Both the position numbers and the translations under genes were made by a program. Positions 54,293 through 59,881 of a DNA stretch of 64,000 nucleotides are shown here, in pieces. A model generated the notes under the pieces. It was not told where the DNA came from. It made no database searches and saw only the letters and a list, made by a program, of their open reading frames with translations. The first letter of the stretch is position 1. Every line of letters starts with the position of its first letter. This DNA is from Bdellovibrionales bacterium RIFOXYC1_FULL_37_79. GTDB lineage: Bacteria; Bdellovibrionota; Bacteriovoracia; Bacteriovoracales; Bacteriovoracaceae. The stretch covers positions 1 through 64,000 of the forward strand of contig MEQB01000035.1 of the NCBI GenBank assembly GCA_001770015.1. Reading direction: 5' to 3'.

Positions 54293-55654
54293 TTATAGTT
54301 CAATTGGACTATAAATACGATAGACCGGATTCCAACCTTCTATGTCGTCATGAATATAAGCCGAAATTCTTAAAAAATACTCCGAGACGCTTGGATCTTT
54401 GTTAATAATCAAAGACGGGATGTCCATCACTGCTGGTTCACTATCATCAACAACAATGGTATCAACGCCATTTTTTAAAATATAATCTGCTCCTCTTACA
54501 TAAGAGCCATACTCCGGTTTTAAATTTTCAGGCACTGACATAATATCTGCGTTAGCATCATCAATGGGAAGCTGTTGATCCTTTTTAAAAGCAATAAACG
54601 TACTGGTATATAAAACCCTGTTTAATAGATTCTTAAAAACCCCGGTCATTTTTACTTTAATATCAGAAGATTGATCAATCACCACACTGACTGCTTCTGA
54701 AGCAGGAGTGGCTATCTGATCGTGGTCAGGTGGGATAACGACGGGCCCTGAATAATCCGCCGTGACGGTTCCGGTCGAACTATATTTATCTACATAATCA
54801 AAAGACAAGGAACCATAACCGAGTTTACCCCAGCTAGTTCCCCAGCTATTTTTGAAATAAAATTTTCTCTCTTTCATGTTATAACCAGTAAGTAAAATCG
54901 AGTGACCTCCGCACTGGGCATCTGGTTCGACTTCGCATCTTTTTCTATATTCCTCATTAAAATCACATTCACCAGTTTCTCCGTTCCAGCCTTCTGGGTG
55001 CAGGGGAAGTCCAATGACTACCGCATTCTTCTTTTCATTCATTTTATTGATGATGGACGCAGAATCGGCGGGAACAATTTCCACGGTAAAATCGGTAAAT
55101 TCAATCAATCTATCTTTAATCTCATCACCAGGTCCAACATGGGCGTAACACATAACCGGGGTACCCTCTTGTTCATCCTTATAGTTTTCACACGGTAACC
55201 CTTTAGCAAACCATGACGGTCCATAGGGCATATCTTTTTCTAGAAAAAAACCCTTGCTTAAGGCCTTTAAATTTAGGGAAGCTCGCGAACCATCCCCATT
55301 ACTAAACTCTCCCAGTACGGCCTTTCCGTAATAAATCAGATATTCTTCCGACATGTTGATCACTTTACCCGTTTTCTTCTTAACCAGACTTTCAGCCAAG
55401 GCTATGGAAGAAAAATATGCACAAGCACCTCTTTCACTCTGGCTTTTAACAGGGGATTGAAATTCCTGAAGAGATAGTTCACTTGGATAGTTGACTAAAA
55501 ACAGACTTAAATTTTTATTAACGGCTTTGGGGGGTAAATTTTCAAATTTTTGTAACTTGAACTTTTTGCCTTCAAATTCATATTCACCGGCCAAGACAAG
55601 AGTTGAAATAAAACCAACCAGCAGACTGACAATTGTTAACCTAAAAAATAACAT
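54293..55654 (-). CDS. Secreted papain-like cysteine protease (C1 family)
   Basis: The protein has about 453 residues with a signal peptide (MLFFRLTIVSLLVGFISTLV). ATG 55654 is chosen because AGGAG lies seven bases upstream; the in-frame ATG five codons earlier overlaps that site. The catalytic elements of C1 peptidases are visible. They are the oxyanion Gln72 and Cys78 in PVKSQSERGACAYFSSIALA, His in QCGGHSILLTGYNMK, and Asn in FYFKNSWGTSWGKLGYG. There is no obvious inhibitory propeptide of ERFNIN type. The last 150 residues form an extra beta-rich domain. The protein probably acts outside the cell, fitting a predatory or scavenging lifestyle. The terminator suggests a single-gene transcript. 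Confidence 0.88.
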   Translation of the reverse strand: MLFFRLTIVSLLVGFISTLVLAGEYEFEGKKFKLQKFENLPPKAVNKNLSLFLVNYPSELSLQEFQSPVKSQSERGACAYFSSIALAESLVKKKTGKVINMSEEYLIYYGKAVLGEFSNGDGSRASLNLKALSKGFFLEKDMPYGPSWFAKGLPCENYKDEQEGTPVMCYAHVGPGDEIKDRLIEFTDFTVEIVPADSASIINKMNEKKNAVVIGLPLHPEGWNGETGECDFNEEYRKRCEVEPDAQCGGHSILLTGYNMKERKFYFKNSWGTSWGKLGYGSLSFDYVDKYSSTGTVTADYSGPVVIPPDHDQIATPASEAVSVVIDQSSDIKVKMTGVFKNLLNRVLYTSTFIAFKKDQQLPIDDANADIMSVPENLKPEYGSYVRGADYILKNGVDTIVVDDSEPAVMDIPSLIINKDPSVSEYFLRISAYIHDDIEGWNPVYRIYSPIEL

Positions 55655-55745
55655 AACTTCACTCCTCATAAGTTTTCAATTTCATCGTAGTTACCCTGAT
55701 AAAATGAATCCGTCCATGAGTAGTGTCAAATTTATATAAATAAAA

Positions 55746-56252
55746 TTAAATAAATCGTATTTTCAAGTACACGACGCCGTCAATTTTTAACGAACTGACG
55801 GACATCTTTAATGCACGCGAAGAGTCATCTGGGGCTTGTTCAATGATTATTTGCTCATCTTGATATTGCTTTTCAAAATTGAAGGTATCCATAATCACTT
55901 TTCGCAAATTACAGGTTCCACAATGCACAGTCTTTCCGCATCCTCCCGGCAAAAAAGCATTTTTACACTCAAATACTTTTCCAGCTGGCAGTTTTTGTAC
56001 AGGAACATTATCCTTACCCAAGGCAACCCGGGCAACCCGGTTAGCATTGAGAATGACCCTATCATTACCCGTAATGACGATGGGATGGGGAAAATCTTCA
56101 ATGTAGTCGTTGAGCTCCATGGTAGCTGATGACGCCTTCATATGAAATTCACACATACTACAAATTCCATGGGATATTTCTTCCCCTCCTTTATTAGTAG
56201 GTAAGGCCACCGGTCCTAATCCTTTTCCACACCAAGCACATTGTCTTTTCAT
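55746..56252 (-). CDS. PAS-like protein with cysteine clusters, coupled to the topoisomerase genes
   Basis: The 168-residue cytosolic protein begins with a probable zinc site of C5-C8 and C31-C34 (CAWC, CSMC). A PAS-like segment follows (FPHPIVITGNDRVILNANRV, 54-73). A second cluster comes after it: C96, C105, C111 and C114 in FECKNAF, GGCGKTVHCGTC. Such clusters may bind zinc or an iron-sulphur group, and PAS domains sense redox or ligands. The ATG overlaps the stop of the A-like subunit gene by four bases, so translation is coupled. A role in modulating the topoisomerase is plausible but inferred only from coupling. Confidence 0.65.
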   Translation of the reverse strand: MKRQCAWCGKGLGPVALPTNKGGEEISHGICSMCEFHMKASSATMELNDYIEDFPHPIVITGNDRVILNANRVARVALGKDNVPVQKLPAGKVFECKNAFLPGGCGKTVHCGTCNLRKVIMDTFNFEKQYQDEQIIIEQAPDDSSRALKMSVSSLKIDGVVYLKIRFI

Positions 56253-57688
56253 TGCAGACCTTTTTTCTTTTTATTAATCCCTTTTTCCAAATTTTTCATT
56301 AACTTGATTTTTTCCTTTTCCTTTTCCACCAGCCACTGGGATAACTGCTCTTTCACATCTATCAATTCTTCAATCAATTTTTTTTCAACCAGCTTGGAAG
56401 ATTTAAAAATTTTTGTGCAATCAATTAGTGCCTTGGAATCTTCCTTGACCATTTGTACTCTTTTTGCCACTTCTTCTTTGGTCATACGATAAATTGGCAT
56501 GTCCGACAGATAATCACAAAAAGTAAATTTTTTGCTGGTTAAATATTCCACAAAACTCTTACGATTCGCGCTCACAGTCGCCTTATGATAATGTTTTTCC
56601 TTAATAAACCTGATTATCTCATTATTCTGTTTGATTTTTTCTTCATAATTTTGGGCCCGTAAAACATATCTTCTATGAACTACTTCGAGTCTTTTTTGAG
56701 TAAAAATTTTAATAATTTCCTCTGGATTATCAAATATTTTTACCCCCCGCTCAGAAATCAGCGTATAGTTCGGAACCAGCGATGATGAAACCAGCATGGA
56801 TTTTTCAATTTCCTCCAAACTGATTTCTTGTCCTCTTTTAAAAATAAGTTCAATTTTAATTTCATTATTAACCGATGAATCAATATAATCTTTAAGGTCT
56901 CCCTTATCGATAAATTTATTCAAATGACGATATATTTTGGCCGCATCATATCCCTTGGGAACTTCTGTAATAAAAAATTTATCCCCGATTTTTTCAATTT
57001 TCATCGGAAATACAATTCTTCCCGACTTTTCAATCTCCAATTTATGCTGATAATTGTGGTAAAAAGGACGCAACTTTTTGGGAGTACCGGTTTCCACACA
57101 ATGGATAATGGAATCCACCAGGTCTTTATGATGAAAACCAGGTATCACCGAGGAAAAACCGGTACCAATACCTTCCGCTCCATTTAAAAGCATGAGTGGA
57201 AGCTTGGGATAGAAAGAAACCGGCTCCATGACTTTTTCATCGTAATTGGGAACCATATCAACTTGTTCAAGATCATCAAACAGTAAAATTTGTGCCACTT
57301 TCCCCAGCTTGCATTCAATATACCTGCTGGCAGCTGGTTGAGTTTCCATTCTCTCCCCAAAGTAGCCTTTTTTATCAATCAAATTGTAATTATTAGAAAA
57401 AGTATAATCCTGGGCCATATTCACAATCGCCGATTCTATTGAAGCCGGCCCATGGGGATGCAAGGTCAATACCAGTCCGGTCGCCGAAGAGACTTTCATT
57501 AGCCCTTTGCTTTGATTTTTATAAAGCGTGTAAAGAATTCTGCGCTGTCCAGGCTTTAAACCATCTTGCAAATAGGGAATCGCCCGATCCATCAACGTAT
57601 AGATTTGATAGGCCCGATATTCATCTCTGACAATTTTATCAAGCGGTATCGATTCCATTGAGTGCAAATATTTTTCTTCCATATCCAT
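56249..57688 (-). CDS. Type IIA topoisomerase A-like subunit, T4 gp52-like
   Basis: The subunit cleaves and religates DNA. The 479-residue protein contains AYQIYTLMDRAIPYLQDGLK then PGQRRILY, the WHD segment LHPHGPASIESAIVNMAQ, catalytic Tyr123 in QPAASRYIECKL, and LPLMLLNGAEGIGTGFSS. NGAEGIGTG is typical of eukaryotic topoisomerase II and differs from the NGSSGIAVG of GyrA. The ending with PIYRMTKEEVAKRVQ and the lack of a C-terminal beta-pinwheel fit T4 gp52 (442 aa). GyrA and ParC (about 750-880 aa) are much longer. It starts 15 bases after the B-like gene and overlaps the PAS-like gene. It may be a specialised enzyme beside a normal gyrase. Confidence 0.85.
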   Translation of the reverse strand: MDMEEKYLHSMESIPLDKIVRDEYRAYQIYTLMDRAIPYLQDGLKPGQRRILYTLYKNQSKGLMKVSSATGLVLTLHPHGPASIESAIVNMAQDYTFSNNYNLIDKKGYFGERMETQPAASRYIECKLGKVAQILLFDDLEQVDMVPNYDEKVMEPVSFYPKLPLMLLNGAEGIGTGFSSVIPGFHHKDLVDSIIHCVETGTPKKLRPFYHNYQHKLEIEKSGRIVFPMKIEKIGDKFFITEVPKGYDAAKIYRHLNKFIDKGDLKDYIDSSVNNEIKIELIFKRGQEISLEEIEKSMLVSSSLVPNYTLISERGVKIFDNPEEIIKIFTQKRLEVVHRRYVLRAQNYEEKIKQNNEIIRFIKEKHYHKATVSANRKSFVEYLTSKKFTFCDYLSDMPIYRMTKEEVAKRVQMVKEDSKALIDCTKIFKSSKLVEKKLIEELIDVKEQLSQWLVEKEKEKIKLMKNLEKGINKKKKGLQ

Positions 57689-57703
57689 CCCGTTATTTCA
57701 CCA

Positions 57704-59881
57704 TTAATTTTTAGCCGCTCTTTTTTCTTTCATATTCAAAAGCCCTTCCTGCACCAGATCGGTATAGGCGGTATGAGAGGGAGTCTTGAGCTTGATCACT
57801 TTAGGCGCTTTATGATCCGGTTTAGTCATTTTTTTAGTGGTTTTCTTTTGCTTTTGTCCTTTATCCGCCGAAACACTACCCCCGCTGGTAGCTGGCGGTA
57901 TTTTCGATGCATGGTTTTTTTCATATTCATCCTGATCCATTAAAAGATCTTTCCTGGGACTGGAATCTTTACCAAAACACACTTGCAACATGCTTTTAGC
58001 GCTCTCTAAATCCTCAATGGTAATTTTAGTGAAAGACTCTCTCGATAAAACATACTTGAACGCTTCGGGGCTCATCTCCCCCAACCCTTTGTTCCTTTGA
58101 ATTTCATGAATTTTTTTATGTTTTTCCTTGAGCATTTCCAGTTCATTTTCGGTTTCGGCAAAGACCCTCTCACCTTTATCCAAGATCACCTCAAACAAAG
58201 GCGCTTTGGCGATTTGAATAATCCCCTTTTCAAACAGCTCCGGCCAAAAGGTAAAAAAGAAATTGGTAAGCAATGTATTGATGTGCCCACCATCCACATC
58301 GGAATCCGCTAAAAATACAATTTTTGAATAGCGCATATTTTCAAAATCTACCGGATGACCAATGGTTAAACCAATACTGGCCATAATGTCTGAAAATTCC
58401 TGGTTATCCAAAATATCTTTGATAGATGCCTGGACCACATTCATCGGCTTGCCTTTTAAGGCAATTCCCCCCTGATATAATTTATTTCTAGCAGAGCGCA
58501 GACCACCAATAGCCGAATCACCTTCGCAAATAAAAAGCGTGCATAACTCTCTTTTTCTTCTTTCATTGGCATCCAGAAGTTTTTCCACTCTTTGTTTTTT
58601 TTGTTGCTTACCCCGTTTGGTGGCATCTTTGAATTCTTCAAATCGGTGCCGACTTTTTGCCCTCTCCAAAACATCATCCGAAAATTCCGGGTAGGACTTG
58701 GCAAATTTCGTAAGATATTTTTCCATAAAAATATCCACGGCCTTATCCAAATGATTATCCCGCACCAGTTTACGTTTGGTCTGGGATTCAAAACGGGCGT
58801 TGGGCATGGTGATACCAATGATAAAGGTAAGCCCGGTTAAAACGTCATTATCCACCACATTCAAATTTTCTTTCTTACTGGTTCGCTCCAGCTTCTCCTT
58901 GAAAAAATTAATAAACGATCTTTTGATCCGGTCGTGATGAAATCCTCCATCAAAGGTGGGACTTGAATTAACAAAGGAAATCATGCGCTCCCTCTGCTCA
59001 CTACTTCTATCCACCACCAGGGACAAGGAGAAATCAATTCGGCCTTGGGCCTTTTTATTCTTGTTGGTCATGGTTTCATAGATGTACTTATCATATCCAA
59101 ACGGCCTGGCCTTCTCTGGATTAATTCTTTGGGCCAGTTCATAAAGACCATTTTCATACAAATATTTTTCTTTATTAAAATAAAATGCCAGTCCTGGGTT
59201 GTTATAGGCCAAATCAATAATTCTTTTTCTCAGGAGATCAGGATCAATAATATTATTTTTATAAACTTCCTGGGCAAGCACCAGTTCCACCCGCACTCCG
59301 GAATGACCGGTGAAGGATTTTGCCGGGGTCTTTTTAACCGTCAAGGCCCCATCTAAAAAGCTATAAGTCTGCTCTTTTTTGGTATTATAATGGCGAACTC
59401 TTACGATAAAGCTATCGGAAGTCAAACAGGTTGCCGCCGCTCCCAAACCATTTTGCCCCAGAGTTCTAAACAGAAAACCTTTTTCATCCACTTCATCATC
59501 TTTGAATTTTGAGCCGGTTCTAAATTCCGTATAAACTTCTTTAATCTTATCCAGAGGAAAACCAATACCATTATCTTCAATCGCCACCGTTTTACCATCT
59601 TCCATCAGGGTGGTATGAATTTCCGTGACGTGTCCCCTATAGTATTCATCTATGCAATTATCTAGAATTTCTTCAATGGCCTTGGATTTTGCCTGGTGGA
59701 ACTTAATGGTCTTAAATTCCAGGGAATTCTCTCCGTATATATAAGTATCTAAGTCTTCAATTTCATTACTACCAAAGACAAGACTGAGTCTGTTTCGGCA
59801 GTGCCATCTCTGATCTTTACTTTCTATAACAGCATCATGGGTCTTTCCGCGACGATTAACTTTTTGTACATCCATAGACAA
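57704..59881 (-). CDS. Type IIA topoisomerase B-like (ATPase/Toprim) subunit, T4 gp39-like
   Basis: The subunit binds ATP and captures the transported DNA segment. The GHKL ATPase motifs are E71 and N75 in IEEILDNCIDEYYRG, IEDNGIGFP (101-109) and GQNGLGAAATCLTS (142-155). The transducer has FVNSSPTFDGGFHHDRI and NARFESQTKRKL, with Lys369. The Toprim domain has CEGDSAIGGLRSARNK (452-466) and ADSDVDGGH (525-533). WPELFEKG (546-553) is nearly that of T4 gp39 (WPELFEQG) and NKGLGEM follows. At 725 aa it has a Lys-rich tail of about 100 residues. The start is TTG 59881 with AAGG five bases away, or ATG 59875. It is first of a three-gene transcript. Confidence 0.87.
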   Translation of the reverse strand: MSMDVQKVNRRGKTHDAVIESKDQRWHCRNRLSLVFGSNEIEDLDTYIYGENSLEFKTIKFHQAKSKAIEEILDNCIDEYYRGHVTEIHTTLMEDGKTVAIEDNGIGFPLDKIKEVYTEFRTGSKFKDDEVDEKGFLFRTLGQNGLGAAATCLTSDSFIVRVRHYNTKKEQTYSFLDGALTVKKTPAKSFTGHSGVRVELVLAQEVYKNNIIDPDLLRKRIIDLAYNNPGLAFYFNKEKYLYENGLYELAQRINPEKARPFGYDKYIYETMTNKNKKAQGRIDFSLSLVVDRSSEQRERMISFVNSSPTFDGGFHHDRIKRSFINFFKEKLERTSKKENLNVVDNDVLTGLTFIIGITMPNARFESQTKRKLVRDNHLDKAVDIFMEKYLTKFAKSYPEFSDDVLERAKSRHRFEEFKDATKRGKQQKKQRVEKLLDANERRKRELCTLFICEGDSAIGGLRSARNKLYQGGIALKGKPMNVVQASIKDILDNQEFSDIMASIGLTIGHPVDFENMRYSKIVFLADSDVDGGHINTLLTNFFFTFWPELFEKGIIQIAKAPLFEVILDKGERVFAETENELEMLKEKHKKIHEIQRNKGLGEMSPEAFKYVLSRESFTKITIEDLESAKSMLQVCFGKDSSPRKDLLMDQDEYEKNHASKIPPATSGGSVSADKGQKQKKTTKKMTKPDHKAPKVIKLKTPSHTAYTDLVQEGLLNMKEKRAAKN

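Follow-up and report, generated by a model that had tools for sequence, protein, structure and literature searches.

What kind of enzyme is encoded by two adjacent genes of Bdellovibrionales bacterium RIFOXYC1_FULL_37_79, where does it belong among the type IIA topoisomerases, and what does it do in the cell? The genes lie in the window, the whole 64,000-nt stretch of DNA that we analyzed, and the original prediction read them as a split, T4-like enzyme with eukaryotic resemblances, fixed in a cellular genome beside or instead of ParCE. We conclude, with a probability of roughly 75%, that the pair is the second type IIA enzyme of the Bacteriovoracaceae, a separate deep cellular lineage that most likely serves as chromosome decatenase.

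Both predicted open reading frames are present, including the 479-aa A chain without a pinwheel and the B-chain motifs GQNGLGAAATC and WPELFEKG (Table 1). The genes are adjacent in the order B-A. The B chain comprises GHKL ATPase, transducer, Toprim and C-terminal gyrase B domains (Pfam DNA_gyraseB, E=6e-22; Toprim, E=5e-10), with SQTK at residue 366. The A chain consists of one PF00521 domain (E=1e-84), with HPHG at residues 77-80, and ends in a Lys-rich helix. With GHKL ATPase, transducer, Toprim and breakage-reunion tyrosine, the pair belongs to the type IIA superfamily; Tyr123, EGDSA, DxDxD, GxNGxG and QTK are invariant family-wide, and every catalytic motif checked is intact. The B chain can start at TTG 59881 (725 aa) or at ATG 59875, two codons later (723 aa), while the family-typical A-chain start, ATG 57682, is probably also the one used here, as in relatives.

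Table 1. Features of the B-A topoisomerase genes, in positions of the window
Feature	Position	Strand	Basis or remark
B chain (gp39/GyrB/ParE-like: GHKL ATPase, transducer, Toprim)	57704..59881	(-)	phrog_543 E=1.5e-138 vs best NCBIfam gyrB model 3.8e-91
A chain (gp52/GyrA-core-like breakage-reunion subunit, no CTD), 479 aa	56249..57688	(-)	phrog_551 E=1.5e-103 vs best NCBIfam model 4e-50
Active-site Tyr123 codon, A chain (SRYIE)	57320..57322	(-)	invariant in 12 family members
SNN, A chain 98-100	57389..57397	(-)	motif comparison
NGAEGIGTGFSS loop, A chain 169-180	57149..57184	(-)	common to eukaryotic Top2
GQNGLGAAATC, B chain 142-152, ATP-lid G2 box	59426..59458	(-)	motif comparison
EGDSA, B chain 453-457, Toprim catalytic Glu	58511..58525	(-)	motif comparison
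DSDVDGGH, B chain 526-533, Toprim DxDxD metal site	58283..58306	(-)	motif comparison
WPELFEKG, B chain 546-553	58223..58246	(-)	resembles T4 gp60 WPELFEQG
B chain C-terminal tail, Lys-rich, predicted disordered	57707..57940	(-)	histone-H1-like in several relatives

A Lys-rich tail closes the B chain in about half of the relatives and reaches 48% K+R; it is histone-H1-like and Lys/Ala-rich in L018, L035, L056, L061, L071 and others, and very short in other members. This tail might substitute for the DNA contact that the pinwheel makes in ParC. The B chain of L120 and L121 aligns to that of the window in two pieces near residue 255, which suggests a lineage-specific insertion there, and the B reading frame is split into two pieces in L016 and L054, probably through sequencing or assembly errors in these MAGs. 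Frames of 1161-1186 aa that seemed to fuse B and A in some relatives arose only because stop codons had been read through, and the two chains have separate genes; a coupling of the two by readthrough was also considered and was not convincing (phases 30/12/24).

In the source genome, which measures 4.36 Mb and is 96% complete, both PF00521 and DNA_gyraseB match twice, at a normal gyrAB locus, whose GyrA carries the GyrA box QSRGGK, and at the B-A pair. These profile searches found no ParCE in the genome; a topo VI A subunit is missing as well, and type IA is represented by one topoisomerase with no second. Since gyrAB and the B-A pair are the only type IIA enzymes, the pair stands instead of ParCE rather than beside it, which settles the alternative that the original prediction had left.

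The distribution of the enzyme follows the family boundary. We sampled 192 Bdellovibrionota genomes, 50 from Bacteriovoracaceae and 142 from elsewhere in the phylum. The A chain occurs in 50/50 Bacteriovoracaceae (62-77% identity) and in 0/142 of the others, and topo VI A in 0/50 and 122/142, respectively (Fisher p=4e-30 for this split, among species that are not independent). The B chain, too, occurs throughout the family, near-complete genomes included. In G203, a Bacteriovoracaceae genome of 1.6 Mb that is 91% complete, only a gyrase-like B chain was found; possibly the enzyme was lost, or the assembly lacks the locus. Twenty sampled Bdellovibrionota have neither topo VI nor the B-A enzyme (including G001, G003, G010, G012, G013, G018 and G020; further genomes with neither are G026, G028, G035, G042, G046, G047 and G052). 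Many of the 20 are small, and some have a second GyrA/ParC-like gene while others apparently have gyrase only, so that not every lineage requires an additional, dedicated decatenase.

Beyond the phylum, A-chain patterns, which detect close relatives only, were run against 84,980 species genomes and returned 69 family loci (under names such as Bacteriovorax, Halobacteriovorax and Bacteriovoracaceae, or as MAGs) and otherwise just three gyrase matches. No short T4-like A chain exceeded a strict cut-off in 248 Bacteroidota and 247 Caldimicrobium-phylum genomes, the matches above it being frames of 674-957 aa, and a search of plasmids gave no closer relatives. Bdellovibrio has been described as having topo VI and lacking topo IV (PMC11302465). 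Our literature search found neither a description of the complementary position of the Bacteriovoracaceae, with the B-A enzyme and no topo VI, nor a paper describing the enzyme itself.

At all 66 of the 66 loci with both chains, A directly follows B on the same strand, with a gap of mostly -4 to 47 nt. Neighbors at 70 loci include a GNAT acetyltransferase (58), ArgRS (43), HU/IHF (23) and a MerR regulator (23), as well as polyprenyl synthetase and PilM; part of this conserved neighborhood has been lost in the source genome. A prophage or other mobile element was considered and ruled out, given the absence of phage genes nearby, the conserved housekeeping synteny and a distribution that is not sporadic. 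The B-A pair is an old chromosomal gene pair, and the prediction that it is fixed in a cellular lineage agrees with its housekeeping setting and its presence throughout the sampled family. In the window, the end of the A gene is overlapped by 4 nt by a gene for a 168-aa cysteine-containing protein (55746-56252, (-) strand), with no Pfam family above threshold, and a papain-like C1 cysteine peptidase with a likely signal peptide is encoded at 54293-55669, (-) strand.

Pairwise identity to every group is about equal, at 21-30%, so that motifs alone cannot decide the kinship of the enzyme, and profiles and trees have to. PHROG T4-like profiles score 349 and 464 bits (A and B). No gyrase/topo IV model of NCBIfam reaches its own cut-off, and the best of them score 171 and 306 bits. 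Matches to bacterial topoisomerase IV models, the ParC/ParE types of Bacteroidota and Desulfobacterota (NF009397, NF007209) included, stay far below the cut-offs (158 vs 644 bits). Profile-profile comparison by hhalign ranks phages first for the A chain (499, against 325 for gyrase and 282 for Bacteroidota/Desulfobacterota ParCE) and for the B chain (665, against 462 and 464), although we take these scores as supporting evidence only, for they favor phages partly through profile diversity (Neff 4.0 vs 2.6/2.2). Structure was tried as a discriminator and set aside: with predicted models of moderate confidence (pLDDT 67 and 70), Foldseek fails to separate the families, the best match being T4 gp52 for the A chain and GyrB for the B chain.

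Trees of the A, B and concatenated alignments (IQ-TREE, LG+C20+F+G4 by PMSF; ParCE sampled from the E. coli and Bacteroidota/Desulfobacterota types) all give the same backbone order: gyrase with E. coli ParCE, Bacteroidota/Desulfobacterota-type ParCE, Bacteriovoracaceae, and viruses with eukaryotes. The branch uniting Bacteriovoracaceae, viruses and eukaryotes against all sampled GyrAB/ParCE has support of 100/99 (A), 98/96 (B) and 100/100 (concatenated), with bootstrap values of 98-100, and the branch setting viruses and eukaryotes apart from Bacteriovoracaceae has 100/96, 88/80 and 100/97. Both are kept when 22 more IMG/VR viral lineages are added (100/99 and 100/98), and the order is unchanged without the longest phages or when just one representative group, viral or eukaryotic, is kept in each run. 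The enzyme is thus a lineage of its own between GyrAB/ParCE and viral/eukaryotic Topo II, neither gyrase nor ParCE. The trees have no true outgroup, and the clade status of the viral and eukaryotic side depends on the root: rooted on gyrase, Bacteriovoracaceae are the sister group of every viral and eukaryotic enzyme sampled on this side; were the root among viruses, as the viral-origin hypothesis has it, they would be the earliest bacterial branch. Under either root they are a deep lineage apart, placed on the long branch that joins the halves of the superfamily.

These results divide the original claim of a T4-like enzyme. Its anatomy and its side of the tree bear the label out, but descent does not, as the approximately unbiased (AU) test rejects grouping with T4/Lazarusvirus (p=5e-6) and with Asteriusvirus-like phages (p=0.014). 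Grouping with the eukaryotic enzymes is rejected as well (p=9e-81). On the viral side, we also came across a 735-kb uncultured phage (L078, LR756503.1, 3782-7090) whose topoisomerase II joins B and A in one chain of about 1100 aa, and a related IMG/VR frame (L126) that has Toprim and A parts and is truncated where its contig stops; together they are sister to eukaryotic Top2 in the A tree (100/96), as is L078 alone in the B tree (100/99). Giant-virus Top2 was not found in IMG/VR by one single-sequence scan, and an alignment scan gave two loci.

The shared motifs tell a similarly mixed story. T4-type phage topoisomerase II (gp39/gp60 + gp52) has the same split chains, with an A chain of about 440-490 aa and no pinwheel; it shares the NN motif and, in T4 gp60 and other T4-like phages, WPELFE, and provides the best profile matches. 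The T4-type enzyme differs, however, in having YHHG and, in T4 gp52, NGVSGIATG where the Bacteriovoracaceae have HPHG and NGAEGIGTG, identity is about 25%, and the T4-type enzymes are those of phages whereas the Bacteriovoracaceae pair is cellular, chromosomal, family-wide and in a separate clade. Eukaryotic Top2 shares the NGAEGIGTG loop, an SNN region of the same length, the lack of a pinwheel and, in many members, a Lys-rich disordered tail, but Top2 and its single-chain viral relatives are one chain, whereas here there are two genes, with the tail on the B chain. SNN is part of a 2-residue insertion near HPHG that is also found in eukaryotic and some viral A chains and is absent from gyrase and ParC.

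Among the alternatives, capture from a T4-like phage followed by fixation in the family fares best, and we regard it as possible though doubtful. It would account for the split chains, the missing CTD and a B-A order like that of Asteriusvirus, and phrog_551 and phrog_543 are by far the best matches, alongside the WPELFE and SNN motifs. Yet the family is not nested in any sampled phage group, the AU test speaks against both phage placements, and the viruses and eukaryotes form a clade that excludes it, although the B chain by itself supports this clade with no more than 88/80. No close viral relative turned up in IMG/VR scans with family-specific patterns. A viral lineage that is unsampled or extinct may have been the source, if the capture preceded the radiation of the family.

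We consider it improbable that the pair goes back to an ordinary ParCE (topo IV) by loss of the CTD and fast evolution, with long-branch attraction pulling it towards viruses. Short, CTD-less ParC is known in Chlamydia, and the NCBIfam model NF007208, which we take to be probably this chlamydial type, describes a ParC of the same CTD-less length, 479 aa. HPHG and NYD..EP in the A chain are of bacterial type, single-sequence PDB matches of the B chain favor ParE/GyrB, and in all three trees the Bacteriovoracaceae have a long stem, of 1.2-1.6 changes per site, so that attraction to viruses remains the main threat to the placement. Against this, the A and B trees agree independently, any single viral or eukaryotic group recovers the placement, and the longest row, Lactococcus phage P1048, does not attract the Bacteriovoracaceae. 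The ParC and ParE models of NCBIfam score far below cut-off, NF007208 being weaker still (108 bits), and the AU test rejects grouping with Bacteroidota/Desulfobacterota ParCE (p=7e-7 and 8e-5) and with gyrase (p=1e-4). The chains thus fall outside the Bacteroidota/Desulfobacterota type by the AU test and outside the E. coli type in all three trees. The original prediction had proposed such a tree and a search for gyrAB and parCE as its checks, and had named a placement of both chains firmly within ParC/ParE as its refutation; that placement was not obtained.

If the pair is its own cellular lineage, as we favor, what would it do? From its anatomy and what is known of type IIA enzymes, the B-A bicistron would yield an A2B2 heterotetramer working by the usual ATP-dependent two-gate mechanism: the B chain would bind ATP and close on the T-segment, the B-chain Toprim and A-chain Tyr123 would cleave the G-segment, and the T-segment would pass. 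Relaxation and decatenation would be expected, and not supercoiling, because there is no pinwheel to wrap DNA. With DNA gyrase the pair shares the catalytic core and B-A order, but its A chain lacks both GyrA box and pinwheel, and a genuine gyrase is encoded elsewhere in the genome. Bacterial topoisomerase IV shares the heterotetramer, HPHG, NYD..EP, RYIE and the presumed role, but differs in its CTD and in its position in the trees, where the pair lies outside all sampled ParCE.

Topoisomerase IV separates replicated chromosomes in most bacteria. As gyrase, with the GyrA box in its own GyrA, keeps supercoiling, the B-A enzyme most likely performs this separation in Bacteriovoracaceae and would, judging from gene content, replace topo VI there as chromosome decatenase. 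Topo VI, a type IIB enzyme whose cleavage subunit has an unrelated fold, plausibly does the same job in the rest of the Bdellovibrionota. That the pair instead serves predation, or a mobile element resident in the genome, as an accessory enzyme seems very improbable: the family is known for predators, a viral origin is possible and only sequence evidence bears on function, but the enzyme is universal in the sampled family, near-complete genomes included, sits in a housekeeping neighborhood and is mutually exclusive with topo VI in the phylum, and gyrase is the only other decatenase candidate.

Bacterial Topo IIA is said, in the abstract of a 2022 study, to form one monophyletic group. The origin of the eukaryotic enzymes is debated, and a viral origin has been proposed (Guglielmini et al., 2022, as cited in PMC10653817 and PMC12198294). 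It is conceivable, though in our judgment unlikely, that the enzyme of the Bacteriovoracaceae survives as the cellular sister group of all viral and eukaryotic Topo IIA, and that viruses, and through them eukaryotes, acquired their topoisomerase II from bacteria of such a lineage. A cellular lineage that splits the long branch between bacterial and viral/eukaryotic enzymes offers a better comparison group for re-testing where eukaryotic Topo IIA came from. The enzyme could also serve in comparisons of mechanism and drug response between gyrase-like and Top2-like enzymes. The Bdellovibrionota themselves, a single phylum in which topo VI and the B-A enzyme exclude each other, offer a natural experiment on how an enzyme basic to chromosome segregation is replaced.
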